Source: Flavobacterium soyangense
Lineage (GTDB): Bacteria > Bacteroidota > Bacteroidia > Flavobacteriales > Flavobacteriaceae
Direction of reading: 5' to 3'
NCBI RefSeq assembly: GCF_015277675.1
Contig: NZ_JADHEC010000010.1
Span: forward strand, 1 to 64,000
DNA length: 64,000 bases
Position numbers and translations under genes: made by a program. Each line of letters begins with the position of its first letter. The first letter of the stretch is position 1. Shown in pieces: positions 2,297-59,853 of the stretch. The notes beneath the pieces were generated by a model, which searched no databases, was not told where the DNA came from, and saw only the letters and a program-made list of their open reading frames with translations.

Positions 2297-3382
2297 ATGA
2301 GCACACCACAAAAAGTAGCACTAGTAACAGGAATTACTGGTCAAGACGGATCTTATTTGGCAGAGTTATTATTAGAAAAAGGATATATGGTTCATGGTGT
2401 TAAGCGCCGCGCTTCTTCTTTTAATACGCAACGTATCGATCATATCTATCAAGACCAGCATGAAGCCCATGTTGATTTTAAATTGCATTATGGAGATTTG
2501 ACTGACTCTACGAATATCATACGAATCATTCAGGAAGTACAGCCAGATGAAATTTATAATTTAGGAGCGATGTCCCATGTTAAGGTTTCTTTTGATTCAC
2601 CTGAATATGTTGCAAATGTGGATGGGATAGGAACTTTAAGAATCCTTGAAGCAGTTCGAATATTAGGTTTGGCAAAGAAAACCAGAGTGTATCAGGCTTC
2701 CACTTCTGAACTGTACGGCGGTTTAGCAGAGAATAAAAATGCACAAGGATTTTATGACGAAAACTCGGCGTTTTATCCGCGTTCTCCGTATGGAGCGGCT
2801 AAGATTTATGGTTTTTGGATTACTAAAAACTACCGTGAGGCTTATGATATGTTTGCCTGTAATGGTATTCTTTTCAATCATGAATCTCCAAGACGTGGTG
2901 AAACGTTCGTAACGCGTAAAATCACCATGGCAGTAGCGGCTATCGCTAATGGAAAACAAGATTGTTTGTACTTAGGTAACCTGAATTCTCAAAGAGACTG
3001 GGGGCATGCTAAGGATTATGTAGAGGCCATGTGGCGTATTTTACAGCAAGATATCCCTGAAGACTATATAATTGCAACGGGTGTTACCACTTATATTAGA
3101 GATTTTGTTCGTATGGCCTTTGCTGAGGTTGGTGTGGAACTCGCATTTGAAGGGGAGCAAGAATGTGAAATCGCGAAAGTGGCTGCGTGCAACAATCCTT
3201 TATACCAGTTAGAAATTGGTACCGTGGTTGTGCGTGTAGATCCTGAGTATTATCGTCCAACAGAAGTTGATTTGTTAATTGGGGACCCTACCAAATCTAA
3301 AACACAATTGGGCTGGAAACCACAATATGATTTGGCTGCTTTGGTTAAAGAGATGGTGGCGAGTGATTTGAAATTGTATTAG
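2297..3382 (+). CDS. gmd: GDP-mannose 4,6-dehydratase, C-terminal tail lost by frameshift
   Basis: Predicted to convert GDP-D-mannose to GDP-4-keto-6-deoxy-D-mannose, the substrate of Fcl. The 361-residue SDR protein has GITGQDG at residues 12-18, STSELYG at 135-141 and the catalytic YGAAK (Y165, K169). The frame ends ...SDLKLY. The expected tail, ending DGGYTTLNYFE, continues in another frame downstream to 3438. Aligned with the second gmd 3' end at 4994-5173, this copy has two extra bases just before its stop. About 20 C-terminal residues are therefore missing, but the catalytic core is complete and activity is plausible. A sequencing error cannot be excluded. Confidence 0.93.
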
Positions 3383-3438
3383 TTAAAGAGTTGTATCTGA
3401 AAGATGGTGGTTATACGACTCTGAATTATTTTGAGTAG
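3383..3438 (+). pseudogene. Out-of-frame 3' tail of gmd
   Basis: Directly after the gmd stop, another frame reads [19 protein letters not shown] and then TAG at 3436-3438. This matches the intact tail encoded at about 5110-5173. It marks where the gmd reading frame originally ended. Confidence 0.8.
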
Positions 3439-3545
3439 TTATCTGTTATCTGTTATCTGTTTTGGGTTAATTGTTTATCCCCTAACCCCATATAAAGGTA
3501 AAAAGGAAGTATAGTTGGTTTAGAAAGAGTTATTTGGTCTTTTTA

Positions 3546-3597
3546 GGATTTGAATCCGTAAAAGTAACAACTTTTCGGGATTTGAATCCGTAAAAGT
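3546..3597 (+). promoter_or_regulatory. Paired 5-2-5 dyads upstream of ATPase A
   Basis: The 20-base sequence GGATTTGAATCCGTAAAAGT occurs at 3546-3565 and 3578-3597, 32 bases start to start. Each copy begins with the palindrome GGATT-TG-AATCC (5-base arms, 2-base centre). CCGTAAAAGT and ACTTTTCGG form an inverted repeat between the two dyads. The position just before a -7-like box suggests operator sites, possibly autoregulatory. ATPase B has the same layout with another sequence. Confidence 0.6.
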
Positions 3598-3599
3598 TG

Positions 3600-3607
3600 T
3601 ATATTTG
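3600..3607 (+). promoter_or_regulatory. Candidate -7 box for ATPase A
   Basis: TATATTTG matches the Flavobacteriia consensus TANNTTTG and lies 18 bases before the ATG at 3626. No -33 TTG at the usual spacing is clear. Confidence 0.4.
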
Positions 3608-3625
3608 TTCTTTATTGTCTCTGTT

Positions 3626-4747
3626 ATGATTGAAAGAATACTTGAAAAAACACTTAAAAGTAAGCTCCATACTGGGAAAGCCATAGTTTTGCTGGGTGCT
3701 CGACAAGTTGGAAAAACTACTTTATTGAAAATGCTTTTTGGTACTTCTAGCGATGTATTATGGATGAATGGAGATGAAATAGATGTACAAGCCCTATTTG
3801 CAACCGTTTCCGCTACGCGATTAAAAGCAATTTTTGGAAATAAGAAAATAATTATTATTGATGAGGCACAACGCATCCAAGATATAGGATTGCGAATGAA
3901 ACTCATCACCGACCAAATTCCAGAAGTTCAATTAGTTGTTACTGGGAGTTCTTCCTTTGAATTGGCTAATAAACTCAACGAACCCTTAACAGGACGTAAG
4001 TGGGAGTACAAAATGTATCCGTTGTCTTTTGGAGAAATGGTCGCTCATCATGGGTTATTGGAAGAAAAGAGACTCTTGGCTCACCGAATGGTTTATGGGT
4101 ATTACCCCGATGTGGTAAATACTGTAGGCGTTGAAAAAGAAATATTAAAACAGTTGTCCAATAGTTATTTATATAAAGATGTACTGTTGCTGGAACAAAT
4201 CAAAAAGCCAGAAGGACTTATTAAATTATTGCAGGGCTTGGCCTATCAAGTTGGTTCCCAAGTTTCGTATAATGAATTGTCTCAGCTTACTAGTCTTGAT
4301 GCTAAAACCGTAGAAAAATATATTGAAGTATTAGAGCAGACTTATATTATATTCCGATTAGGTTCCTTTAGTAGAAACCTTCGGTCGGAACTCAAAAAAA
4401 GCAGAAAAATTTATTTTTACGACAATGGAATTAGAAATGCTTTGATTGCTAATTTTAATCAAGTAGAAAATCGGACAGATGTAGGGGCTTTATGGGAAAA
4501 TTTCATGGTTTCTGAACGAGTGAAATACGCTCAGTATTCTCAGAAATGGGCTAATTCTTGGTATTGGCGTACTAAAGAACAAAAAGAAATTGATTATATC
4601 GAAGAACAAGATGGCGTTTTGACTGCTTATGAATTCAAATGGAATCCTGATGCTAAACATAAAATGCCTAAGTTGTTTCTAGAAACCTATGCCGGAAGTG
4701 AATTTAAAGTTATTCATAGAGATAATTTTGAGGATTTTTTGATGTAG
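3626..4747 (+). CDS. AAA ATPase with DUF4143 domain (ATPase A)
   Basis: A 373-residue protein with an N-terminal AAA_14-type ATPase domain: Walker A GARQVGKTT at about residues 24-32, Walker B IIIIDEAQ with D79/E80, and a VTGSSSFEL sensor-like segment. The C-terminal DUF4143 region ends with a PD-(D/E)XK-like pattern, EIDYIEEQDG then AYEFK (about D323, E336, K338). The ATG at 3626 is preferred over a TTG at 3605. The family is widespread and patchy in Bacteroidota and archaea, and its function is not established. It has no obvious role in sugar metabolism and interrupts the gmd-flippase junction. It is bracketed by two copies of the gmd 3' end, which suggests it arrived as a cassette. Confidence 0.9.
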   Translation: MIERILEKTLKSKLHTGKAIVLLGARQVGKTTLLKMLFGTSSDVLWMNGDEIDVQALFATVSATRLKAIFGNKKIIIIDEAQRIQDIGLRMKLITDQIPEVQLVVTGSSSFELANKLNEPLTGRKWEYKMYPLSFGEMVAHHGLLEEKRLLAHRMVYGYYPDVVNTVGVEKEILKQLSNSYLYKDVLLLEQIKKPEGLIKLLQGLAYQVGSQVSYNELSQLTSLDAKTVEKYIEVLEQTYIIFRLGSFSRNLRSELKKSRKIYFYDNGIRNALIANFNQVENRTDVGALWENFMVSERVKYAQYSQKWANSWYWRTKEQKEIDYIEEQDGVLTAYEFKWNPDAKHKMPKLFLETYAGSEFKVIHRDNFEDFLM

Positions 4748-4993: not shown

Positions 4994-5173
4994 AGACCTA
5001 CCGAAGTTGATTTGCTAATTGGTGATCCAAGTAAGTCTAAAAAATTAGGCTGGAAACCGCAATATGATTTAGCGGCATTGGTTAAAGATATGATGCAAAG
5101 CGATTTAAAATTAATGAAGAAAGAACAATATTTGAAAGACGGTGGGTATACGACTTTGAATTATTTTGAATAA
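4994..5173 (+). pseudogene. 3' remnant of a second gmd copy
   Basis: Sixty in-frame codons including the stop encode the last 59 residues of a GDP-mannose dehydratase, from [17 protein letters not shown] to DGGYTTLNYFE. It is clearly homologous to, but diverged from, codons for the same region at 3254-3438. No start codon or upstream domain is present. The left edge coincides with a truncated palindromic repeat. It could be the end of the original gmd left after recombination placed another gmd plus ATPase A upstream. Confidence 0.9.
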
Positions 5174-28041: not shown

Positions 28042-28055
28042 CCCACTAAAGGGGG
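28034..28055. repeat. C-run/G-run palindrome supplying a stop codon
   Basis: CCCCCTAACCCACTAAAGGG plus GG. Its CCCCCTAA gives the final Pro and the stop of the epimerase gene. Confidence 0.75.
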
Positions 28056-28060
28056 AATTG

Positions 28061-28147
28061 CAGATTAGAGATGGCAGGTTTCAGGTAGCAGAATGCAGAT
28101 TTCAGGTAGCAGAATGCAGGTTTCAGGTAGCAGAATGCAGATTTCAG
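28061..28147. repeat. 21-bp (3 x 7) tandem repeat before ugd
   Basis: About 3.5 copies of a 21-base unit containing TTTCAGGTAGCAGAATG (units at 28075, 28096, 28117, 28138), preceded by two related heptamers. Each 21-mer is three heptamers. The block is open in the ugd frame and would encode a repeated RFQVAEC, but this upstream extension is considered an artefact. Confidence 0.85.
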
Positions 28148-28210
28148 AAAATAGAGAAAATAGAGAAAAGAAGAGAAAAGAAAAAAGGAATAGAAAAAAG
28201 AAAACAGAAA

Positions 28211-29602
28211 ATGAAAATTACAAAAATTTGTTGCATTGGGGCTGGATATGTTGGTGGGCCAACTATGGCGATTATTGCGCAAAAATGCCCACACATTCAG
28301 GTTACGGTTGTGGATTTGAATGCCGAACGCATTGCCGCCTGGAACGATGAAGACCAGAATAATATTCCAATATACGAACCGGGATTAAGCGACATTGTTG
28401 CCGAAGCCAGAGGGCGAAACCTGTTTTTTTCGACCGATGTGGATAAAGCAATTGATGAAGCCCAAATCATTTTTATATCAGTAAACACTCCAACAAAAAC
28501 ATACGGTAAAGGCAAAGGAATGGCTGCCGATTTGAAATATATCGAATTGTGTGCCAGACAAATTGCCAAAATTGCCAAAGACGATAAAATTGTGGTTGAG
28601 AAATCGACTCTGCCTGTACGTACAGCCGAAGCCATCAAAAGTATTCTGGACAATACCGGGAATCACGTAAAGTTTCAAATTTTGTCCAATCCTGAGTTTC
28701 TTGCCGAGGGAACAGCTGTCCAGGATTTATTGAATCCCGATCGCATACTGATTGGCGGAGATCCGTCGGCTGAAGGACAGGAAGCGATTCAGGCCCTGGT
28801 GGAGGTTTATTCTAACTGGGTGGCTCCTGAAAAAATACTGACTACCAATGTGTGGTCATCTGAATTATCAAAACTGACAGCCAATGCTTTTTTAGCACAA
28901 AGAATATCCTCCATCAATGCCTTGTCAGAACTTTGTGAAAAAACGGGTGCCGACATCAATGAAGTAGCCAGGGCCATAGGAACGGACAGCAGAATAGGAC
29001 CTAAGTTCCTTAAAGCTTCAGTTGGTTTTGGAGGTTCCTGTTTTCAGAAAGACATCCTGAATTTGGTTTACATCGCTAAATCCTATGGATTAAACGAAGT
29101 GGCCGATTATTGGGAACAGGTAATTATCATGAACGACCATCAGAAAAAGCGGTTTGCCAATAAAATTGTGCAGACCCTTTACAATACTGTTTCCGATAAG
29201 AAAATTGCATTTTTGGGATGGGCTTTCAAGAAAGACACTAACGACACCAGGGAATCAGCGGCGATTTATGTAGCCAATGATTTAATTAACGAACACGCAC
29301 AAATTGCGGTTTATGACCCAAAAGTGTCCCATAAAAAAGTGCTGAATGATTTGGATTATTTAGAAAGCAGAACGGCTGAAAAAAATGCGAATGCCATCAG
29401 TTCCTTTGACAGTCCGTATGAAGCCTGCAAGGATGCTCACGCAATTGCCGTACTGACGGAATGGGATGAATTTGTGCACTATGACTGGCAAAAAATATAT
29501 GATAGCATGCAAAAACCAGCCTTTGTGTTTGATGGAAGAAATATTCTGGACAAGAAAGCATTGGAGACTATTGGATTTGTATATCAGGGGATAGGGAGTT
29601 AG
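28211..29602 (+). CDS. ugd: UDP-glucose 6-dehydrogenase
   Basis: A 463-residue cytosolic enzyme that oxidises UDP-glucose to UDP-glucuronate. The start at 28211 ([17 protein letters not shown]) puts the Rossmann GAGYVG at 9-14; an upstream extension would consist of tandem repeat residues. The catalytic cysteine lies in [10 protein letters not shown] (C277). VSTPT-like [20 protein letters not shown] and the overall length resemble the animal/plant-type UGDH subgroup more than the short bacterial type. It supplies UDP-GlcA for acidic glycans. It is followed by a heptamer repeat block. Confidence 0.93.
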
Positions 29603-29603
29603 G

Positions 29604-29701
29604 GGTTGTCGGTTGTCAGTTATGGGTTATCGGTTATGGGTCGTCAGTTGACGGTTGTGAGTTATTGGTTATGAGTTGTCGGTTAACTGTTTAATCGTTG
29701 T
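29604..29701. repeat. Fourteen consecutive heptamers, GGTTATG/GGTTGTC type
   Basis: Starting at 29604 the DNA divides cleanly into 7-base units such as GGTTGTC, AGTTATG, GGTTATC and AGTTGAC. It drifts into GGTTAAC and TGTTTAA, the type seen near 1446 and 2061. This links the different repeat styles into one family. Confidence 0.8.
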
Positions 29702-31157: not shown

Positions 31158-32204
31158 ATGAAAAACATATTAATCACCGGTGGTGCAGGATTTATAGGTT
31201 CGCATGTGGTGCGGCTTTTTGTCCAAAAATATCCAAAATACCATATTTATAATTTGGATGCCCTTACTTATGCGGGGAATCTGGAAAATATAACTGATAT
31301 CGAAAAGGAGTCCAATTATACATTTGTAAAAGGGGATATTACTAACGAGGCTTTTATTGCCCAATTGTTTCAGGAGCATCAGTTTGACGGCGTCATTCAT
31401 TTGGCTGCCGAATCGCATGTGGATCGTTCCATTGAAGATCCGATGGCTTTTGTAAAAACGAATGTGATTGGAACCGTGAATTTACTTAATGTGGCTCGAA
31501 AACAATGGGCAAATAACAGTGAAGGCAAACGTTTTTACCACGTTAGCACTGATGAGGTATATGGTTCTTTGGGAGCTGAAGGTTTGTTTACAGAAACGAC
31601 ACCTTACGATCCCAATTCTCCGTATTCGGCTTCCAAAGCCAGTTCAGACCATTTTGTCAGAGCTTATGGCGAGACTTATGGTTTACCATTTGTACTGACC
31701 AACTGTTCCAATAATTACGGGCCCAACCATTTTCCTGAAAAATTAATTCCCTTGTTTATCAATAATATTATCAATAACAAGCCTTTACCCGTTTATGGGG
31801 ATGGAAATTATACCAGAGATTGGCTGTTTGTAAAGGATCATGCCGTGGCTATTGATTTGGTTTTTCACCAAGGAATGAATCACGAAACTTATAATATTGG
31901 CGGTTTTAACGAATGGAAAAATATTGATTTGGTTAAAGTATTATGCCAAATTATGGACAAAAAGTTGGGCAGAGAGTCAGGTCAATCGGCAAAACTTATT
32001 ACTTATGTCAAAGACAGACCGGGACATGATTTGCGTTACGCCATTGATGCCGGTAAAATAAACAGGGAATTGGGATGGAAACCCTCAGTCACTTTCGAAC
32101 AAGGGCTGGAAATTACCATCGATTGGTACTTGAATAATCAGGAATGGTTGAACAATGTGACTTCGGGAGATTATGAAGGGTATTATGAGAAGATGTATTC
32201 GTGA
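31158..32204 (+). CDS. rfbB: dTDP-glucose 4,6-dehydratase
   Basis: A 348-residue extended SDR, second step of dTDP-L-rhamnose synthesis. It has [15 protein letters not shown] at 4-18, LAAESHVDRSIEDP, HVSTDEVYGSLG and YSASK (about Y156, K160), then NCSNNYGPNHFPEKLIPL. These are diagnostic for RfbB/RmlB. Its partners rfbC, rfbD and rfbA are 14 kb downstream, so the rhamnose pathway is split. The 70-unit heptamer tract begins 10 bases after the stop. Confidence 0.96.
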   Translation: MKNILITGGAGFIGSHVVRLFVQKYPKYHIYNLDALTYAGNLENITDIEKESNYTFVKGDITNEAFIAQLFQEHQFDGVIHLAAESHVDRSIEDPMAFVKTNVIGTVNLLNVARKQWANNSEGKRFYHVSTDEVYGSLGAEGLFTETTPYDPNSPYSASKASSDHFVRAYGETYGLPFVLTNCSNNYGPNHFPEKLIPLFINNIINNKPLPVYGDGNYTRDWLFVKDHAVAIDLVFHQGMNHETYNIGGFNEWKNIDLVKVLCQIMDKKLGRESGQSAKLITYVKDRPGHDLRYAIDAGKINRELGWKPSVTFEQGLEITIDWYLNNQEWLNNVTSGDYEGYYEKMYS

Positions 32205-32213
32205 GGAGAGGTA

Positions 32214-32703
32214 TGGGTTATGAATTATGAGTTATGAATTATGAGTTATGGGTTATGAGTTATGGGTTATGAATTATGAGTTATGAATTATGAGTTATGG
32301 GTTATGGGTTATGAGTTATGAGTTATGAATTATGAGTTATGAGTTATGAGTTATGGGTTATGAGTTATCGGTTATGGGTTATGAGTTATCGGTTATGGGT
32401 TATGAGTTATGAATTATGGGTTATGAGTTATGGATTATGAGTTTTGAGTTATGAGTTATGGGTTATGAGTTATGAGCTATGAATTATGAGTTATGAATTA
32501 TGAGTTATGAGTTATGAATTATGGGTTATGGGTTATGAATTATGAGTTATGGGTTATGAATTATGAATTATGAGTTATGAATTATGGGTTATGAGTTATG
32601 GATTATGAGTTTTGAGTTATGAATTATGAATTATGAGTTATGAATTATGAGTTATGGGTTATGAGTTATGAATTATGAGTTATGAATTATGGGTTATGGG
32701 TTA
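32214..32703. repeat. Seventy tandem heptamers, consensus TGRRTTA
   Basis: From 32214 to 32703 (490 bases) the sequence is exactly 70 units of TGAGTTA, TGAATTA, TGGGTTA and rarer variants (TCGGTTA, TGGATTA, TGAGTTT, TGAGCTA) with no phase slip. A variant block TGGATTATGAGTTT occurs at 32431 and again at 32599, 168 bases (24 units) apart, so a higher-order repeat exists. Stops occur in every frame, so it is not coding. It separates rfbB from the antiterminator gene. A C-run/G-run palindrome follows at 32750-32762. Confidence 0.95.
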
Positions 32704-32830
32704 TGGGTAATCGGTTGGAAAAAATTAGAAGTGGGAGGTTGACCGTCTACCCCCTAAAGGGGAACAGGGAAGTTAAAAGTATTTGGGTCGAACAAAAAAA
32801 AATGAGCTTAGAAAAACGAATTTAAAGACT

Positions 32831-47001: not shown

Positions 47002-47870
47002 TGAAAAAAATACTAGTTACCGGAGCCAATGGGCAATTGGGCTCTGAAATAAAAGAATTAGCCTCCCATTATCCCAATTTTGATTTTATTTTTACTGATA
47101 TTGATGATTTCCCATTGGATAAAGCACAGGAAATCATTACTAATTTTAATCGTATTCAGCCTGAGATTGTGATTAATTGTGCTGCCTATACCGCTGTTGA
47201 TAAAGCGGAACAAGATCAGGAAGTAGCTGATGCCATCAACCATCAGGCCATTGCCACCTTGGCCACCTTGTGCCATGATTCAGGAGCAAAACTGGTCCAT
47301 GTTTCCACAGATTATGTTTTTGACGGCACTTCTCCAGTAGCTTATTCAGAGGAAGACCAACCCAATCCCCAAAGCGTTTATGGGGTTACAAAATTAGCAG
47401 GCGAAAAAGCGTGTTTAAAAAATTGTCCGGAAAGTATTATTATAAGAACAGCTTGGGTTTACTCAGAATTTGGCAATAATTTTGTAAAAACGATGTTGCG
47501 TTTGATGACCGAAAGAGATACCTTGAGTGTGGTAAACGATCAGATTGGCTCTCCCACTTATGCTGCTGATTTGGCTCAGGTTATTTTAACTATTTTGGAT
47601 AGTCCTAAATGGGAACCAGGCATTTATCATTATTCGAATGCAGGATCCATCAGTTGGTATGAATTTGCACTGGACATTAAAGAGATTGGAAATAAAAGCT
47701 GTGATATCAAAGGAATTCCGGCATCAGCTTATCCAACGCCTGCCGAAAGACCTGCTTATTCTTTATTGGATAAATCCAAAATTGCAGCGGTTTACGGAAT
47801 TGAGCCTGTTGATTATAAAACAAGTTTGAAGAGAATGATGTACCAATTGCAGGCGGCAGGTGGTAGATAG
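47001..47870 (+). CDS. rfbD: dTDP-4-dehydrorhamnose reductase
   Basis: A 289-residue SDR, last step of dTDP-L-rhamnose synthesis. Visible are ILVTGANGQLGSEIKEL at 4-20, INCAAYTAVDKAEQD, VSTDYVFDGTSP and YGVTK (Y127, K131). The family part ends about at MMYQLQ. The last residues AAGGR and the stop codon come from a 26-unit heptamer array that begins at 47849, inside the gene. This suggests the repeat replaced the natural 3' end without harming the core. Confidence 0.96.
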   Translation: MKKILVTGANGQLGSEIKELASHYPNFDFIFTDIDDFPLDKAQEIITNFNRIQPEIVINCAAYTAVDKAEQDQEVADAINHQAIATLATLCHDSGAKLVHVSTDYVFDGTSPVAYSEEDQPNPQSVYGVTKLAGEKACLKNCPESIIIRTAWVYSEFGNNFVKTMLRLMTERDTLSVVNDQIGSPTYAADLAQVILTILDSPKWEPGIYHYSNAGSISWYEFALDIKEIGNKSCDIKGIPASAYPTPAERPAYSLLDKSKIAAVYGIEPVDYKTSLKRMMYQLQAAGGR

Positions 47871-48030
47871 CAGGTGGTAGATAGCAGATAGCAGGAGGCA
47901 GATAGCAGGTGGCAGGTTGCAGATAGCAGGTTGCAGATAGCAGGTGGCAGGAGGCAGATAGCAGGAGGCAGATAGCAGGTTGCAGATTGCAGGTTGCAGA
48001 TTGCAGGTTGCAGATAGCAGGCGGCAGATT
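47849..48030. repeat. Twenty-six tandem heptamers, consensus GCAGRNN
   Basis: 182 bases divide into exactly 26 units (GCAGATA, GCAGGTG, GCAGGTT, GCAGGAG, GTAGATA and similar) with no phase slip. The first three units overlap the rfbD 3' end and contain its stop. An A-rich stretch follows up to the rfbA promoter area. Confidence 0.95.
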
Positions 48031-48102
48031 AAAAAAGAAAGAGGAAAGAATAAAGAATAAAGAAGCAAGATACAGATCTATTGAAACTGTTATTATAAAA
48101 TT

Positions 48103-52359: not shown

Positions 52360-52497
52360 ACACACCCCCTACCCCTCTCAAGAGGGGAGTTAGGAGTGCA
52401 ACTAATTAAGTTAGGGTAGATAAAATTATTTAGATTAATCCAAAAATTATTATCAGCAGGGTTCAGTTCCCCTCTTGAGAGGGGCTAGGGGTGTGTT
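52360..52497. repeat. MITE-like palindromic element, unit A
   Basis: A 138-base element with long imperfect inverted ends: left end ACACACCCCCTACCCCTCTC, right end reading the complement (AGAGGGGCTAGGGGTGTGTT). Each end also contains the small palindrome CCCCTCTCAAGAGGGG or its relative. About 70 AT-rich bases lie between. It is the intact upstream flank of the DUF559 gene. The rest of 52188-52611 holds a short GGTTAATTGTTTAAT block and a fragment of the same element near 52322. Confidence 0.85.
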
Positions 52498-52611
52498 CTT
52501 GGATTACTTCAATAACAAGGTTTTAACAACGATTAAAGCAGGCGGTATTTTATTTAATAAAACAAGTTAAAATAGTTACTTTTAATTCCTCAATAAGGCA
52601 AAACAAGCTAT

Positions 52612-53010
52612 ATGGCTAAAAGAAAAATAATCCCTTACAATCCACGACTAAAAGAGTTTGCGCGCCAACTTCGGAATGATTCCACTAGAACCGAGATTTT
52701 TATTTGGTTAAAGTTGAAAGGCAAACAAATGTATGGGTATGATTTTCATCGTCAAAAACCGATTGATCTGTATATATTAGATTTCTTTTGTCAGGAATTG
52801 ATGCTAGGTATAGAAGTGGATGGATATTCTCATGAATTTCTGGAAGTTTATAATAGAGATGAGGTTAATGAAAAGAGAATGAATGAATTGGAAATTACTA
52901 TTTTGCGATTTAGTGATGAACAAGTTTTAAAAGATATGGAGAATGTAATTAGGGCGATTGAGTTTTTTATTTTTGAATATGAGAAACACACCCCCGATCT
53001 CCCGTTCTAA
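52612..53010 (+). CDS. DUF559 domain protein (Vsr-like nuclease fold)
   Basis: A 132-residue protein of a family related to very-short-patch-repair-type endonucleases. It has NPRLKEFARQLRNDSTRTEI, WLKLKGKQMYGYDFHRQKP, DFFCQELMLGIEVDGYSH (the acidic nuclease-like core, D and E) and a late RFSDEQVLKDMENVI. Function is not established. The gene stands alone within palindromic repeats. Its last residues KHTPDLPF and stop lie inside the left end of the next repeat copy. This close coupling suggests that gene and repeats travel together. Confidence 0.85.
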   Translation: MAKRKIIPYNPRLKEFARQLRNDSTRTEIFIWLKLKGKQMYGYDFHRQKPIDLYILDFFCQELMLGIEVDGYSHEFLEVYNRDEVNEKRMNELEITILRFSDEQVLKDMENVIRAIEFFIFEYEKHTPDLPF

Positions 53011-53830
53011 AAACGGGATAAGCTCCCTCAAGAGGGGAGTTAGGAGTGCAAATAAATACATTTTTATAAGTGAAATCATTTAGTTTAATTCTTAAGGCTA
53101 CTATTAGCAGTTTTCTGTTCCCCTCTTGAAATCGAAGATTCAACGACTCCAAAACAAATATAAACTAGAATTATAGAACTTGTCCCTTTGTAAAGATTTA
53201 CACACCCCCAGCCTCCCGTTCTAAAAACGGGACAAGCTCTCTCAAGAGGGGAGTTAGGAGTGCTAGTGATTACGTTAGTGTAAATAAAAATATTCCGTTT
53301 AATCCTAAAGGTAACTATTAGCAGGGTTATATTCCCCTCTTGAGAGGGGCTAGGGGTGTGTTATTTAGTTTAATAGTAAAAGTTATTAAAAGCAGTTTTC
53401 CGTTCCTCTCTTGAAATCGAAGATTCAACGACTCCAAAACAAATATAAACTAGAGTTATAGAACTTGTCCCTTTGTAAAGATTTACACACCCCCAGCCCC
53501 TCTCAAGAGGGGAGTTAGGAGTGCAAATAAATACGTTTCCATAATTGAAATTATTTAGTTTAATCCTAAAGATAACTATTAGCGAGATGCTGTTCCCCTC
53601 TCAATAGGGGAGTTAGGAGTGCTAGTGATTACGTTAGTGTAAATAAAAATATTCCGTTTAATCCTAAAGGTAACTATTAGCAGTTTTTTGTTCCCCTCTT
53701 GAGAGGGGCTAGGGGTGTGTTGTTTGTCTTATTTAATTCTTAATAGTACTTTTAACAGAGTCAAATTCCTCTCTTGAGGGAGTTTGTCCCGTTTTTAGAA
53801 CGAGAGGCTCTGTATATGTCCGGAATTTTA
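52985..53830. repeat. Array of MITE-like palindromic elements, units B to F
   Basis: At least five further full or partial copies of the family of unit A: 52985 to about 53190, 53200-53362 (most complete), 53363-53484 (right part only), 53485-53721 (compound, with an internal extra half) and about 53722-53830. Shared pieces are ACACACCCCC, CTCTCAAGAGGGGAGTTAGG, an AT-rich middle with TTTAATCCTAAAG, and CCCCTCTTGAGAGGGG. Units at 52985 and 53200 carry an extra CCCGTTCTAAAAACGGG hairpin. No gene is seen from 53011 to 54006. Confidence 0.85.
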
Positions 53831-54006: not shown

Positions 54007-54876
54007 ATGAACAAAATAGAAAATATAGAAAATGACTGGCTGTTTGAGATAACACCCAAAAATAAATTCTTTTCGCTGAACCTCAAAGAAGTCTGGCAAT
54101 ACCGAGATTTGTTGTTGCTGTTTGTAAAAAGAGACGTGGTTACCGTATACAAACAAACCATTTTGGGGCCTTTATGGTACCTGATTCAGCCCTTGTTTAC
54201 TTCGATTACGTTTACTATTATTTTCAATACCGTGGCGGGAATAGATACCGGAACCGTACCTCCCTTTTTGTTTAATTTGGCCGGAATCACGGTATGGAAT
54301 TATTTTACGGCCTGTCTTAATGATACCTCGGACACCTTCAAGAAAAATGCGGCCATATTTGGCAAAGTCTATTTTCCTCGGATCATCATGCCACTTTCGG
54401 TGGTGATTTCCAACTTGTTGAAATTTGGAATTCAATTTATGATTTTCGTGGCTTTTTATATCTTTTATTATTTGCAGGGAGCAGCCATTTCCATCAACGA
54501 ATCCTTATTGTTTTTTCCTTTACTGGTAGCCCTGATGGGGATTTTAGGACTCGGACTGGGAATGATTATTTCCTCCCTGGTGACGAAGTATCGGGATTTC
54601 ACTTATCTCATTGGCTTCGGAGTGCAATTGCTAATGTACCTCTCGGCGGTAATGTATCCTATGGCATTAATCAAAGAAAAATTACCTGCTTACGGATGGC
54701 TGGTGCAATACAATCCACTGGCGTATATTATAGAGACCACCCGGTATATGTTGTTGGGCATAGGACACATATCCTTTTTGGGATTGGGCTATACTTTTGC
54801 CGTGACTGCCATTGTGTTTTTGGTTGGCGTGTTGATTTTTAATAAGACCGAGAAGAGTTTTATCGACACAGTTTAG
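54007..54876 (+). CDS. wzm: ABC-2 type polysaccharide exporter, permease subunit
   Basis: A 289-residue inner-membrane protein with about six helices. It carries the family opening WQYRDLLLLFVKRDVVTVYK and ILGPLWYLIQPLFTSITFTI, and a YNPLAYIIETTRYML segment before the last helix. It forms the channel for a complete lipid-linked polymer, powered by Wzt (58591). The two genes, normally adjacent, are separated here by 3.7 kb of accessory DNA. The final 16 codons are duplicated at about 56417-56467. Confidence 0.94.
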   Translation: MNKIENIENDWLFEITPKNKFFSLNLKEVWQYRDLLLLFVKRDVVTVYKQTILGPLWYLIQPLFTSITFTIIFNTVAGIDTGTVPPFLFNLAGITVWNYFTACLNDTSDTFKKNAAIFGKVYFPRIIMPLSVVISNLLKFGIQFMIFVAFYIFYYLQGAAISINESLLFFPLLVALMGILGLGLGMIISSLVTKYRDFTYLIGFGVQLLMYLSAVMYPMALIKEKLPAYGWLVQYNPLAYIIETTRYMLLGIGHISFLGLGYTFAVTAIVFLVGVLIFNKTEKSFIDTV

Positions 54877-54904
54877 GTTTGCTTCGCCTGTTCGAGCGGA
54901 GCTC
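54877..54904. repeat. Repeat copy after wzm (second copy at 56501-56528)
   Basis: GTTTGCTTCGCCTGTTCGAG and the following CGGAGCTC recur at 56501-56528 with two base changes. This extends the similarity between the two sides of the ATPase B cassette beyond the wzm coding end. A five-unit heptamer block with TGCAATC and TGTAACC follows at about 54918-54952. Confidence 0.7.
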
Positions 54905-55001
54905 TCGGGTTGGGTTTTCTGCTACCTGCAATCTGTAACCTGCAATCTGCAAGTGCTAAACAAACTACTATTTAATCAATCCAAAAAAAAAGCAATAAAT
55001 G

Positions 55002-55049
55002 TCAATGTATTGATGTAAAATAATAACAAAAACATCAGTGTGTTGATAT
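55002..55049 (+). promoter_or_regulatory. Paired 5-2-5 dyad-like boxes upstream of ATPase B
   Basis: TCAATGTATTGATGT at 55002-55016 and TCAGTGTGTTGATAT at 55035-55049 are 33 bases apart start to start. The first has the perfect palindrome TCAAT-GT-ATTGA, the second a partial one. TGATGT and ACATCA form an inverted repeat between them. Spacing, arm length and position mirror the paired dyads before ATPase A although the sequences differ. A likely role is an operator. Confidence 0.55.
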
Positions 55050-55078
55050 TTTTTATTATTTTAGCCAAAAAGTAAAAG

Positions 55079-56269
55079 ATGCAAAGATTATACAGTCAAT
55101 TTTACGAAAAATACGCAGTTGTGCAAACGCAACAAGTGAGGGACTTTATGCATACTATTGATTGGGACAATCGATTTATAGGTATAAAAGGGAGTAGAGG
55201 TATAGGAAAAACAACGCTTCTGCTGCAGTATATTCGGCTAAATTTTAAACCAGACAAAAGTGTTTTGTATGTAAGTTTAGACCATTTATATTTTCTTGAA
55301 AACACCTTATACGATTTAGTAAGTGATTTTTATAAAAAAGGAGGCTTGTTTATAGCTATCGATGAAGTTCATAAATATCCAAACTGGGCAATTGAAATAA
55401 AAAATATGTATGACGATATGCCCCATTTAAGATTAGTTTTCACGGGTTCCTCTTTACTTCATATACAGCAGGCAAAAGCAGATTTAAGCAGGCGCGTGGT
55501 GGTTTATTCTATGCCGGGTTTGTCTTTTAGGGAGTTTCTTCAATTTGAAACAAAGATAAATTTGGATACTTATACACTAAAAGATATAGTAGCCAATCAT
55601 ATAGCCATCAGTATTGCTATTACCCAAAAAATAAAACCTTTACATTACTTTGATGAGTACTTGAATTATGGCTATTATCCTTTTTATATCGAAAATAAAA
55701 AAGCATTTCATCAAAAATTAAGCGAGATTTTACTAACAGTTTTAGAAGTCGACATACCGCAATATGCTTCCATTCAGGTTTCTAATATTGTAATGCTAAA
55801 AAAATTATTGGCAGTCATTAGCAATTCAGTGCCTTTCAAACCTAATATGAACAGCATAAGCGAACGCACGGGAATAAGTCTCAATACCATGAAAAACTAT
55901 TTAAATCTTTTGAATGACGCACAACTTTTACAGCTTTTGTATGTAGAAGACAAAGGAATTAATAGTTTAGGCAAACCAGAAAAAATTTATTTGAATAACC
56001 CTAATTTAATGTTTAATTTGGTCAAAGAAGTCGATAAAGGAAACCTAAGAGAAACCTTCTTTTTTAACCAACTCAACTATAAGAACACTGTTTTTGCTTC
56101 ACAAAGTGCCGATTTTAAAGTTGCTGGTGTATATGAATTTGAATTGGGAGGTAGAAATAAAAAGCAAAAGCAAATTAAAGATAGTAAGAATGCATTTATT
56201 GTAAAAGATCATATCGAGATAGGAACTGATATAAATATTCCCTTGTGGTTGTTTGGTTTTTTGTATTAA
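55079..56269 (+). CDS. AAA ATPase with DUF4143-like C-terminus (ATPase B)
   Basis: A 396-residue protein with Walker A KGSRGIGKTTLL (about 37-48), Walker B FIAIDEVHKYPNW (D95, E96), and LVFTGSSLLHI sensor-like segment (about 119-129). Residues 260-320 contain a winged-helix-like part (ISERTGISLNTMKNYLNLL). The C-terminus has a weak nuclease-like pattern (DFKVAGVYEFELGG) in which the usual ExK lysine is replaced. Same broad family as the ATPase at 3626 but a distant subgroup. It lies between wzm and a duplicated wzm end, has no link to glycan synthesis, and looks like an inserted cassette. Confidence 0.88.
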   Translation: MQRLYSQFYEKYAVVQTQQVRDFMHTIDWDNRFIGIKGSRGIGKTTLLLQYIRLNFKPDKSVLYVSLDHLYFLENTLYDLVSDFYKKGGLFIAIDEVHKYPNWAIEIKNMYDDMPHLRLVFTGSSLLHIQQAKADLSRRVVVYSMPGLSFREFLQFETKINLDTYTLKDIVANHIAISIAITQKIKPLHYFDEYLNYGYYPFYIENKKAFHQKLSEILLTVLEVDIPQYASIQVSNIVMLKKLLAVISNSVPFKPNMNSISERTGISLNTMKNYLNLLNDAQLLQLLYVEDKGINSLGKPEKIYLNNPNLMFNLVKEVDKGNLRETFFFNQLNYKNTVFASQSADFKVAGVYEFELGGRNKKQKQIKDSKNAFIVKDHIEIGTDINIPLWLFGFLY

Positions 56270-56403
56270 TTTGCCTTAAGGGTTAACAAACCACGAATGG
56301 TTGGGTTTCACTGTTTAACACATAACCTACCACTTTATGGTAAAAAAAAATTAAACCACATAAGGCATGTATGATTCATATAAGAAAAAAAACTTTGTGC
56401 CTT

Positions 56404-56467
56404 ATTGTTTTTTGTTGGAGTGTTGATTTTTAATAAGACCGAGAAGAGTTTTATCGATACAGTTTAG
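56404..56467 (+). pseudogene. Duplicated 3' end of wzm
   Basis: The last 15-16 codons of wzm (GVLIFNKTEKSFIDTV and stop) are repeated almost base for base, with one change in the final 50 bases; similarity fades upstream of 56404. It has no start and cannot be functional alone. The distance to the first copy is 1593 bases, with ATPase B in between. Confidence 0.9.
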
Positions 56468-56709
56468 GTTGGTTTGTCTGTTGTTGGTTATCAGTTATCG
56501 GTTTGCTTCGCTTGTTCGAGCAGAGCTCAAGGTTTGAGTTAACGGTTTAATCGTTATCCGTTGTTCGTTATGGGTTAACTGGTTAATCGTTTAACTGATA
56601 AAAAATATCAATATCAATTTCAATGGTAATATCAATTTCTGTGCCTACAACCCACAACTCATAATCCCTCTATTTTTTATCTTCATGTGGTGATTAAACT
56701 TTATTTTTA
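56468..56709. other. Spacer between the wzm remnant and the Fic operators
   Basis: Holds heptamer-like DNA (TTGTTGGTTATCAGTTATCG), the repeat copy at 56501-56528, then GGTTTAATCGTTATCCGTTG-style units. No gene is supported. The 134 bases from 56270 to 56403 before the remnant are also empty. Confidence 0.55.
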
Positions 56710-56797
56710 CCGCAAAAATGCGGTTATAAATTGAAATAATCACCGCATAGTTTTTTATTTACGGTAAATAATGGTTATATTTACCGCAAAAATGCGG
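56710..56797 (+). promoter_or_regulatory. Operator-like dyads of the Fic gene
   Basis: The palindrome CCGCA-AAAA-TGCGG occurs at 56710-56723 and 56784-56797, 74 bases apart. Between them are a half site (ACCGCAT) and the palindrome TTTACGGTAAA. The second dyad overlaps a TATATTTA box right before the ATG at 56803, a position suited to repression, perhaps by the winged-helix end of the Fic protein itself. Confidence 0.7.
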
Positions 56798-56802
56798 CGT
56801 AT

Positions 56803-57891
56803 ATGTATATTCATCAAAAAAAGAATTGGCCAAAATTCACTTGGGATGCGGACCTGATTACTCCTTTACTTGGAGAAGTCAGACATCGTCAGGGCAAAAT
56901 TCTTGGAGTGATGCAAGGACTTGGTTTTCGTTTGCAAGAAGAAACTGTGCTGAATACATTGACTTTGGATGTGGTTAAGTCGAGTGAAATTGAGGGAGAA
57001 CAATTGAATCCCGAACAGGTACGTTCCTCTATTGCAAGACGTTTGGGAATTGAAATTGCTGGTGCTGTTCCTGCAGAACGCAAGGTTGAAGGTGTTGTAG
57101 AAATGCTTTTAGACGCTACACAACAATATGATGCACCTTTAAGTGAGGAACGTTTGTTTGGATGGCATGCTTCCCTTTTTCCAACAGGGCATAGTGGAAT
57201 GCATAAAATAAAGACCGCTGCTTGGCGAGGCGATGCCATACAGGTAACTTCAGGTCCAATGGGTAAAGAAAGGATTCATTTTGAAGCCCCAAGCGCAGAT
57301 CAGGTGCCCATAGCAATGATTGTTTTTTTAAAGTGGTTCAATGCCAATCAAGATATAGATCCAGTATTAAAAGCCGCTTTTGCTCATTTGTGGTTTGTTA
57401 CGATACATCCCTTTGAAGACGGAAATGGACGTATAACACGAGCTATAACCGATATGCAATTGGCCCGGGCCGACCAAAGCAAACAACGCTTTTATTCGAT
57501 GTCGACTCAGATTCAAGCAGAGCGCAGCACCTATTACGACATATTGGAAACTACCCAAAAAGGGGATTTGGATACCACAGATTGGTTGAAATGGTTTTTG
57601 GATTGCTTGTTGCATTCGATGAGACAGACCGATGAAACTATTGCAGCCATTTTAAAGCGTGCCCAATTTTGGGAAACGCATCGTACTACTGATTTTAACC
57701 CGCGTCAACAAAAAATACTGCAGCTACTTTTGGAGGATTTTTTTGGCAAGCTTACCGTTTCTAAATATGCCAAAATTACTAAAGTCTCAACGGATACTGC
57801 TCTAAGGGATATTCAAGATTTGATGGCTAAAGGTATCTTGGAAAAAGAAGGAAGTGGTAGAGGGATTTCTTATCATTTGCTTATTGTTTAA
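56803..57891 (+). CDS. Fic-family protein with DUF4172-type N-terminus
   Basis: A 362-residue predicted AMP-transferase (or related nucleotidyl/phosphoryl transferase). The inhibitory motif SSEIEG (S60...E64-G65) is N-terminal to the Fic domain (class II, self-inhibited). The active site HPFEDGNGR is complete at H202-R210. The C-terminus has a winged-helix part (KLTVSKYAKITKVSTDTALR, about 314-345). The WDADLITPLLGEVRHRQG start is typical of the DUF4172 subgroup. It stands alone in the island between wzm and wzt, preceded by strong dyads. Target is unknown; a toxin-like or regulatory role is possible. Confidence 0.93.
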   Translation: MYIHQKKNWPKFTWDADLITPLLGEVRHRQGKILGVMQGLGFRLQEETVLNTLTLDVVKSSEIEGEQLNPEQVRSSIARRLGIEIAGAVPAERKVEGVVEMLLDATQQYDAPLSEERLFGWHASLFPTGHSGMHKIKTAAWRGDAIQVTSGPMGKERIHFEAPSADQVPIAMIVFLKWFNANQDIDPVLKAAFAHLWFVTIHPFEDGNGRITRAITDMQLARADQSKQRFYSMSTQIQAERSTYYDILETTQKGDLDTTDWLKWFLDCLLHSMRQTDETIAAILKRAQFWETHRTTDFNPRQQKILQLLLEDFFGKLTVSKYAKITKVSTDTALRDIQDLMAKGILEKEGSGRGISYHLLIV

Positions 57892-58163
57892 TCGCTTAAT
57901 CGTTTAACTGTTTTATTGTTTAACCGTTTAACTCATACCCAACACCCAACACCTCAAACCTCAGGTGCCTAATATGGTAAAGAAATCCGTCCCGATGGCT
58001 ATCAGGAATATCTGTGACTTCGCTTTAGCGAATCCGTGTTCATCTGCATCCAAAAAAAACAGCATCTCACTTGTGAAGTGACAAAAAAAAAATAACTTTG
58101 TCCTTTAGCGCCTTCGTGGCAAAAATAGTTTAATCGATTAACTGTTTAAACGATTAACCCCAT
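57892..58163. other. Spacer with heptamers, no gene
   Basis: Begins with GTTTAATCGCTTAATCG-type units and CCCAACACCCAACACC, also 7-base periodic. Then come an AT-rich stretch and a TAACTTTG box near 58092. No reading frame is supported. Confidence 0.5.
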
Positions 58164-58213
58164 AACCAATTAACCTTCTCTTGAAAGACATTATCTTAAA
58201 AGCCGAAAACATC
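58164..58213 (+). repeat. Decoy copy of the wzt 5' end (50-bp perfect direct repeat)
   Basis: These 50 bases are identical to 58574-58623, which contain the leader and first 11 codons of wzt. From TTG 58181 the frame reads MKDIILKAENI and then unrelated residues to a stop at 58243. Recombination between the copies would remove 410 bases and leave wzt intact. Confidence 0.95.
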
Positions 58214-58507: not shown

Positions 58508-58590
58508 ATAGTGAGAAGCGAGAAGTAAATAGTTTCACCATTCACGCTTCATCAAATAACCAAATAAACGATTAACCAATTAACCTTCTC

Positions 58591-59853
58591 TTGAAAGACA
58601 TTATCTTAAAAGCCGAAAACATCTCTAAACAATACCGTCTTGGGCAGGTAGGAACGGGCACGCTCAGTCATGACCTGAACCGCTGGTGGCACCAGGTGCG
58701 CGGCAAGGAAAATCCCTATCTCAAAATAGGCGATACCAATGACCGCAGTACCAAAGGCGAAAGTGATTATGTATGGGCATTGCAAGACATTAATTTTGAA
58801 GTAGAGCGTGGCGAAGTTTTGGGCATTATAGGCAAAAACGGAGCGGGGAAATCTACCCTCTTAAAAATATTATCCAAGGTTACAGCGCCTACCACGGGCA
58901 GCATCAAGTCCCGAGGGCGTATTGCTTCTTTGCTGGAAGTAGGTACAGGATTTAACGGCGAAATGACGGGACGCGAAAATATCTTTTTGAACGGCGCCAT
59001 TTTGGGCATGACCAAAAAAGAAATTGCCTCTAAGATAGATGAAATCATTGAATTCTCTGGTTGTGAACGCTACATAGATACCCCCGTAAAACGCTACTCT
59101 AGCGGAATGACGGTGCGACTGGCTTTTGCCGTAGCGGCTTTTCTTGAACCTGAGATTTTGGTAATTGATGAGGTACTGGCCGTGGGAGATGCTGAGTTCC
59201 AGAAAAAAGCGATTGGCAAGATGCAGGATATTTCTCGTACTGGAGGCAGAACGGTTTTGTTTGTGAGTCATAATATGGCGGCGGTTAAACAATTGTGTAG
59301 TAAAACTATCGTTCTTGAATATGGTGCTGTAGTTTTTGAAGGCAATACTAATGAAGGGATAGAGTATTATTTACAGTCTAACCAGTACGATGGTTATATA
59401 GGGCATTATGTAAATGAAGTTGTTGTTGAATCCGGATTTGTGAGTCTTGCTCTTGTGGATAAAAACGATGCCATTAGAACCGAGTTTGGATTTGACGAAC
59501 CTATTGCCATCAAGATAAAAGTGAAAGTATCTGAAGAACACCTGAAATCTTATTTGAGTTTTAGAGTTTTAGACAGGAATGAAAGAATAATATTTACTTC
59601 TGAAATTAAATTAGCATCTGAAATAGATAAAGCTGGTTTGCATCAGTTTGAAGCAAAATTACCAAAGCAGTTTTTAGTGCCTAGCAAACTAAAACTTACC
59701 TTCGGGATGCATATTCCCAATGTCGAATTGATTGATTACCGAGAAGAATGTTTGTCTTTTGAGATTTTGGAAACTGGTACTGATTTTCATATTTATGGAA
59801 GTGCAGATTATGGCTGTGTATTAATTGATTGCAATTGGAACTTAATTAAATAA
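58591..59853 (+). CDS. wzt: ABC-type polysaccharide exporter, ATPase with Wzt C-terminal domain
   Basis: A 420-residue protein: ABC ATPase domain with GIIGKNGAGKSTLLKILSKV (about 80-99), signature RYSSGMTVRLAFA (about 168-180) and EILVIDEVLAVGD (Walker B, about 188-200). The C-terminal Wzt-type beta-sandwich (about 280-420) binds the end of the finished glycan. The start is TTG at 58591, because MKDIILKAENISKQYRLG is the family opening; no ATG precedes it. It powers Wzm (54007). A terminal-modification signal is usual for this system, and the methyltransferase gene directly downstream fits such a role. Confidence 0.95.
   Translation: MKDIILKAENISKQYRLGQVGTGTLSHDLNRWWHQVRGKENPYLKIGDTNDRSTKGESDYVWALQDINFEVERGEVLGIIGKNGAGKSTLLKILSKVTAPTTGSIKSRGRIASLLEVGTGFNGEMTGRENIFLNGAILGMTKKEIASKIDEIIEFSGCERYIDTPVKRYSSGMTVRLAFAVAAFLEPEILVIDEVLAVGDAEFQKKAIGKMQDISRTGGRTVLFVSHNMAAVKQLCSKTIVLEYGAVVFEGNTNEGIEYYLQSNQYDGYIGHYVNEVVVESGFVSLALVDKNDAIRTEFGFDEPIAIKIKVKVSEEHLKSYLSFRVLDRNERIIFTSEIKLASEIDKAGLHQFEAKLPKQFLVPSKLKLTFGMHIPNVELIDYREECLSFEILETGTDFHIYGSADYGCVLIDCNWNLIK

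Follow-up and report, generated by a model that had tools for sequence, protein, structure and literature searches.

The window, a stretch of 64,000 nucleotides from a Flavobacterium soyangense contig (NZ_JADHEC010000010.1), carries an intact gene for an ABC-2 type polysaccharide export permease, wzm (54007–54876; Pfam ABC2_membrane, E 4e-17), followed at some distance by wzt, which encodes an ABC transporter ATPase (58591–59853; Pfam ABC_tran, with a weak Wzt_C match). The genes, gene-end copies and 28-base elements described below for the wzm–wzt and gmd regions lie on the forward strand. wzm and wzt are adjacent in nine relatives; here, the gap after wzm holds, in order, a gene that we call ATPase B (55079–56269), a displaced copy of the wzm end, a Fic gene, a displaced copy of the wzt start and two small ORFs before wzt itself.

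In a BLAST comparison of the window with itself, the 3′ end of wzm occurs twice, as a gene-attached copy (54807–54892) and as a second, displaced copy (56398–56482; reading ALLFFVGVLIFNKTEKSFIDTV*), with 88% identity over 86 nt (E 1.6e-23). The duplication spans the last 70 coding bases and 16 bases past the stop codon; 63 of the last 69 nt of the gene are identical between the copies, and the final 48 nt (54829–54876) recur at 56420–56467 with one change. An earlier note on this DNA had described a repeat of 16 codons: the duplication stands, but it covers about 23 codons, and base 54828, which had been counted in, differs. A 28-base element that the note had listed behind both copies (54877–54904 and 56501–56528) is indeed present there, but it is a dispersed repeat, found on five further contigs of the same genome and in four other genomes of the genus (G002, G014, G021, and G023); it therefore has no value as independent evidence, and we rejected it as a component of the inserted unit.

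ATPase B (396 aa) is, as previously noted, a DUF4143-type ATPase, with both Pfam domains over the cut-off (AAA_14, 101.3 bits, E 5e-29; DUF4143, 29.0 bits vs a cut-off of 28.1, E 1e-6). PADLOC matches it to the candidate defence family PDC-S01 at 99.3 bits. Its fold model (mean pLDDT 77, AAA+ part) best matches the archaeal AAA+ ATPase 2fna (Z 15.1, rmsd 4.2, 261 residues), while the C-terminal part alone gave a low-confidence model (67); the top-ranking structures for it were winged-helix proteins, none better than E 0.06, and no nuclease appeared. Pfam returned AAA_14, DUF4143, and a weak NTPase match, and neither a LAGLIDADG nor a GIY-YIG domain was found in the protein. Between the wzm copies, no ORF of at least 80 aa other than the ATPase is present; no transposase was detected there, and neither ORFs nor Pfam revealed a tyrosine or serine recombinase.

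Further into the gap lies the Fic gene (56803–57891; DUF4172, Fic, and HTH domains; PADLOC SoFic), a solitary neighbour preceded by repeats in which TTTACCGCAAAAATGCGG occurs twice (56689–56797, no strand assigned). Beyond it, 58163–58213 is identical in 51 of 51 nt to the start region of wzt (58573–58623; BLAST self-comparison)—a third gene-end scar, lying in the wzm–wzt gap and absent from the earlier note.

The same layout had been reported at gmd, and this holds true. Here, gmd (2297–3382; Pfam GDP_Man_Dehyd, E 2e-144) ends in an attached copy (3257–3437) that recurs as a displaced copy at 4997–5172, and between the two lies ATPase A (3605–4747; AAA_14 and DUF4143 by Pfam), a PDC-S01 match of 553.7 bits. 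At 78% in the self-comparison, the gmd copies are more diverged than the wzm pair.

To place these two cases in context, we surveyed DUF4143 loci across the genus, where Pfam detected the domain in 86 of 249 genomes. The sample comprised 100 listed loci (some near contig ends being left out), the window's two, and the third DUF4143 gene of this genome, 103 in total. In a gene-end test, which scored a neighbour's end recurring outside called genes across the tested gene and reached over the gap to the next called gene, 13 of 100 DUF4143 genes had a gene-end duplication, compared with 3 of the 602 other genes that these loci contain; all three of the latter adjoin a DUF4143 ATPase. Without the window's own pair the count was 11 of 98, and the genome's third DUF4143 gene showed no such duplication in this test. 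The earlier note had proposed a survey of this kind, and flanking duplications proved to be enriched at DUF4143 genes. A test based on protein similarity, reaching 700 nt, agreed (10/99 DUF4143, 2/103 adjacent, and 0/226 non-adjacent genes; Fisher p 5e-6). When several intervening genes were allowed (reach 4 kb), 894 queried genes yielded 15 matches, nine of them round the focal ATPase. Comparing flanks directly (reach 600 nt), we found repeats in 18 of 98 ATPase loci; of 161 other genes comparable in size, 6 scored, including a DUF4143, a YhcG, and a RhuM gene. The repeats round the focal ATPases measured 33 to 181 nt, that is, not a fixed short target duplication.

Within this genome, a protein-level scan of 852,690 bp (726 genes; reach 6 kb) returned scars only at gmd and wzm; at the nucleotide level, the start of wzt was recovered as well, along with three repeats of lesser clarity that have one copy inside a gene. 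A further set of 30 DUF4143 loci (reach 700 nt) gave five matches, one of them weak; it shares loci with the 100-locus set and adds no independent count. Thirty phylum-wide DUF4143 loci (reach 700 nt) gave three matches: two share one position and measure 46 nt, and the third falls in a questionable ORF. Among 20 B-type relatives, one had a clear scar (L433; 240 nt, 97%) and one more, L429, a flank repeat (66 nt, 84%). L433 stems from a Parabacteroides MAG, and its B-type ATPase is bracketed by the 3′ part of its neighbour (1103–1342 and 2787–3025).

These numbers bear on the simplest alternative, namely chance similarity or an error of assembly, the latter having been named in the earlier note as something that would undo its case. 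The assembly is a draft of 95 contigs, which leaves some room for this explanation, but the E value of the wzm repeat and the recurrence of the arrangement in many genomes speak against chance, as the note had argued. An assembly artefact is likewise unlikely, because the same type of scar recurs in many genomes, one of which is a single contig (G022, locus L466); taken together, we consider the alternative scarcely credible. Judged from the sequence, the wzm-side repeat is a genuine scar of a single-gene insertion.

The surprise is that this class of scar crosses protein families, a class that the earlier note had half seen. For RhuM genes, where our expectation set before the search was at least 2 of 30, a scar was present in 6 of 29 genus loci, four of them at the protein level. 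Fic genes had it in 4 of 28 loci (two at the protein level) and YhcG genes in 2 of 30 (one at the protein level), in addition to L075; the reach was again 700 nt, one RhuM locus (L458) and two Fic loci were skipped in these counts, and L466 and L469 are one insertion in two genomes. Among S23 genes, the single match in 30 (L195) was an artefact of an intergenic array and was not counted as real. DUF559 gave one weak match among 8 usable loci, 22 of 30 having been skipped, mostly since the domain sits in a large gene. Further cargoes were an ORF6N gene behind gmd (L409), a DUF5615 gene (L100), and an FkbM gene (L083). In the loci from these other-family searches, 2 of 123 non-adjacent genes scored, namely the ORF6N gene of L409 and gmd in L407, and 1 of 117 adjacent genes, the L195 array. 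In L407, an fcl-like tail (1085–1210) brackets gmd itself, with no candidate-defence gene present.

In PADLOC terms, the scanned proteins correspond to PDC-S01 (DUF4143), PDC-S02 (YhcG), PDC-S05 (RhuM and ORF6N), and SoFic (Fic); DUF5615 and FkbM had no PADLOC match. Our data do not bear out a special role of the ATPase: RhuM, Fic, and YhcG genes carry the same scar, and FkbM, DUF5615, and gmd are bracketed as well. Mobility restricted to the ATPases is accordingly weakened as an idea by the Fic, RhuM, YhcG, and ORF6N cases. Four RhuM genes from 84 plasmid records had no detectable scar. Three of them (L470, L472, and L473) belong to operons of restriction-modification type, where each occupies the space behind a methylase or hsdM gene and ahead of the following one; this result speaks against carrying the scar over to genes embedded in that setting.

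We also delimited the inserted unit. Related ATPases at different host genes have sequence in common from at most about –106 to +8 of the ORF; for B-type relatives, the common stretch begins between –36 and –92 and runs to the stop codon. Beyond the ORF, inserts are short, with a median of 141 nt (range 3 to 416; 18 of 27 cases at most 170). These 27 lengths, worked out from coordinates, come from 18 flank repeats—not all of them gene ends, L095 being array-like—and from five RhuM, two Fic, and two YhcG cases; L053, L061, L075, L236, L237, and L469 were left out. Such tight and repeatable limits exceed what random joining predicts and fit a mechanism specific to the element equally well; it is mainly because of them that we keep an element-encoded mechanism in view.

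The stretch upstream of the ATPases often contains two or three near-palindromic repeats, which we read as putative operators. In the window, these are TCAATGTATTGAT and TCAGTGTGTTGAT, 33 bp apart, before ATPase B (55000–55047), and GGATTTGAATCC, present twice 32 bp apart, before ATPase A (3539–3597), neither array being assigned a strand. Of 104 regions upstream of ATPases, 36 had a direct-repeat score of at least 16, as against 5 of 300 for other genes and 0 of 312 shuffles; the corresponding counts were 3/28 for Fic, 2/30 for S23, 0/30 for YhcG, and 0/30 for phylum-wide DUF4143. Most arrays were judged by eye, and the ATPase B pair itself, scoring 7 and thus below the cut, was recognised via similar pairs before genes in L420–L423.

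These arrays, which travel with the gene, would suit an account in which the ATPase is an autonomous, homing-type one-gene element, its DNA-binding and nuclease-like C-terminal part cutting insert-free gene ends and repair copying the unit together with part of the donor end; DUF4143 would be a putative nuclease in this account. The distribution over host sites points the same way in part. Grouped by common neighbour, 22 ATPase loci lie by a 707-aa gene (presumably tex, as read from the sequence), seven by an enoyl-CoA-hydratase-like gene, and four by a 533-aa gene (presumably fumA, on the same basis), such that groups of loci keep one neighbour, at least at the 707-aa and 533-aa genes. Apart from wzm, wzt, gmd, phnA (identified by its YjdM domain), and HipA_C, host gene names should be taken as presumptive. 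At the 533-aa gene, the four ATPases are 87–97% alike, and ATPases 79–89% alike occur at other genes (L113, L115, L089, and L123), where close relatives of the fumA group carry the scars of those other genes (L115 and L113). Moreover, the layout is that of fungal mobile ORFs, as described in the relevant passages of PMC3630166.

Against this account, the same scar surrounds Fic, RhuM, and ORF6N inserts, and Fic proteins are not known to be nucleases. One host gene can also take different cargoes: gmd received ATPase A here and ORF6N in L409, and rnhA received DUF4143 in L078 and YhcG in L075. (At tex, similarly, we found DUF4143 in L159 and DUF5615 in L100.) Finally, the C-terminal model is of low confidence and had no match at E 0.001 or better. 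We regard a homing-type ATPase as rather unlikely.

In L466, the RhuM ORF starts 3 nt past the preceding stop codon and ends where the scar begins; 55 of 55 nt of the end of what we take to be murG recur after RhuM, keeping the approach to the start of the following gene, presumably murC, in place (both names read from the sequence). As for phnA, the gene found past the L115 scar follows it within 82–270 nt in 10 of 29 loci of other genomes, and three nearer relatives have another gene after phnA and no scar.

Both cases in the window lie inside a polysaccharide cluster, as one would expect if the scars were by-products of recombination between diverged clusters of this kind and the ATPases coincidental. 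The fcl-like tail round gmd in L407, where no candidate-defence gene takes part, and the FkbM cargo of L083 would also fit. However, in 9 of the 13 scarred DUF4143 loci the host gene has, on our reading, no polysaccharide role (among them fumA, rnhA, phnA, and an HD-domain gene, most of these names being presumptive), and the strong enrichment round these particular families speaks against coincidence, making this explanation distinctly unlikely, more so than a homing-type ATPase.

Sequence divergence between the copies offered a view of their history. Differences at first, second, and third codon positions numbered 22/9/67 in the 13 DUF4143 cases and 20/7/40 in ten more, so that third positions account for 107 of 165 differences (65%; p 8e-5 vs one half, with cases not fully independent). 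In L115, the two phnA copies are separated by 7 differences in 108 nt, each at a third position, and the nearest of six other species compared has 8 and 9 differences from the two copies. The attached gmd copy is 84.4% identical to one species vs 80.1% to its displaced counterpart; in 3 of the 11 loci compared (of 29, one strand read), the other species came closer to it than the displaced copy did. The wzm copies, in turn, are nearest to each other, with 63 of 69 nt vs at most 56 of 69 for any of ten relatives, and a foreign origin of either wzm copy is not supported for this reason. Comparison with relatives thus supports a putative foreign end among the two copies at phnA and gmd. Since the copies differ mainly at third codon positions, some displaced or attached copies would appear to have been, until recently, functional alleles of different lineages. 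A plain target-site duplication followed by neutral drift should, by our reckoning, place no more than about half of the differences at third positions; it was rejected on these counts and on the phnA pair, which differs at third positions only. For young cases such as L466 and L164 (43 of 43 nt identical), a target-site duplication is possible.

The explanation we favour, with a probability of roughly 0.55, is that a solitary single-gene cassette was joined with duplication of a gene end, without the encoded protein needing to catalyse the event. At wzm, a cassette consisting of the operator-like array and the ATPase B ORF (about –92 to the stop codon) would have entered the wzm–wzt gap, and the joining would have duplicated the wzm 3′ end, leaving wzm intact and a displaced tail downstream. 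A new site might be reached by illegitimate joining with local duplication, either by template switching or by homology-facilitated illegitimate recombination. Of such events, only those after which both neighbours still function would persist, and it is because of this filter that the end would be found duplicated: an insertion in a gene end may be tolerated when rejoining slightly upstream restores that end, as L466 exemplifies. Spread between species could follow by homologous recombination via the common gene end, which would yield one native and one foreign copy. Several parts of the cassette reading can be seen in the sequences themselves, namely the duplication, its enrichment at single-gene PDC families, the tight inserts, and the occurrence of related ATPases at unrelated hosts. 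Several observations stand against it: 87 of 100 DUF4143 loci are without a gene-end duplication, the insert limits are tighter than random joining predicts, the wzm copies resemble each other more than any relative compared, and in a Flavobacteriaceae MAG (L420) an ATPase B relative, 88% alike, lies directly after wzm with no scar.

The closest precedent, by analogy, appears to be the mobile ORFs of fungal mitochondria. In passages of PMC3630166 on atp6 of Glomus and Allomyces, an ORF is inserted behind a gene whose C-terminal part is present twice; the two tails of Glomus atp6 are 63.5% alike, one is 91.2% like that of a relative, and a native and a foreign tail were inferred. As in those systems, a single ORF sits between intact wzm and a second copy of its end. 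Unlike there, where the ORF encodes a LAGLIDADG or GIY-YIG homing endonuclease in a mitochondrion, the present one encodes a bacterial AAA_14-DUF4143 ATPase, and the scar is common to unrelated families. Genomic islands that integrate at gene 3′ ends restore those ends, and likewise leave the 3′ end in two copies; in contrast to them, a recombinase gene is missing between the wzm copies. Homology-facilitated illegitimate recombination integrates linear DNA through one homologous and one illegitimate joint (PMC3240628), and is not linked to single-gene cassettes or gene-end scars at the start of that paper's abstract. Duplications made by transformation are described for pneumococcus, on a far larger scale, in the abstract of PMC3784515. 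In the literature searched, preprints being outside its scope, we found no account of a gene-end scar round such genes, and no listed paper that names RhuM.

The observations also touch on how these families came to be regarded as defences. PDC-S01, to which ATPases A and B both belong by PADLOC, is given in the pertinent passages of PMC12988326 as the fourth most common defence across prokaryotes, found by embedding ('guilt by embedding'); these passages treat PDCs as putative defences, with validation pending for most, and do not mention an insertion scar. Our data hint that single candidate-defence genes may spread as one-gene inserts that spare their neighbours. Should they be dispersed in this promiscuous way, their embedding in operons would be weaker evidence of defence than assumed. 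A bolder version, which we consider possible if doubtful, would have PDC-S01, -S02, -S05, and SoFic be one-gene mobile units that insert at gene ends with a duplication of roughly 30–180 bp by which both neighbours are spared, as bacterial counterparts of the fungal mobile ORFs; were this true, their lying inside operons, the very feature that nominated PDCs as defences, would reflect their mode of insertion. In practical terms, the scar is a simple tracer of single-gene gains and shows the entry of a gene into a tight operon, as with the RhuM gene of L466 between the presumed murG and murC, neither of which is broken.

The window also contains repeats of other kinds. Intergenic arrays with a 7-base unit lie at 28043–28190, 29582–29700, 32089–32770, and 47825–48062; arrays of a similar kind lie on either side of S23 genes in the wzm–wzt interval of the relatives L010 and L011, and adjoin wzm in L420. 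Upstream of wzm, a DUF559 gene (52612–53010) sits amid intergenic repeats of 100–140 bp that are 80–95% alike (52372–53725).
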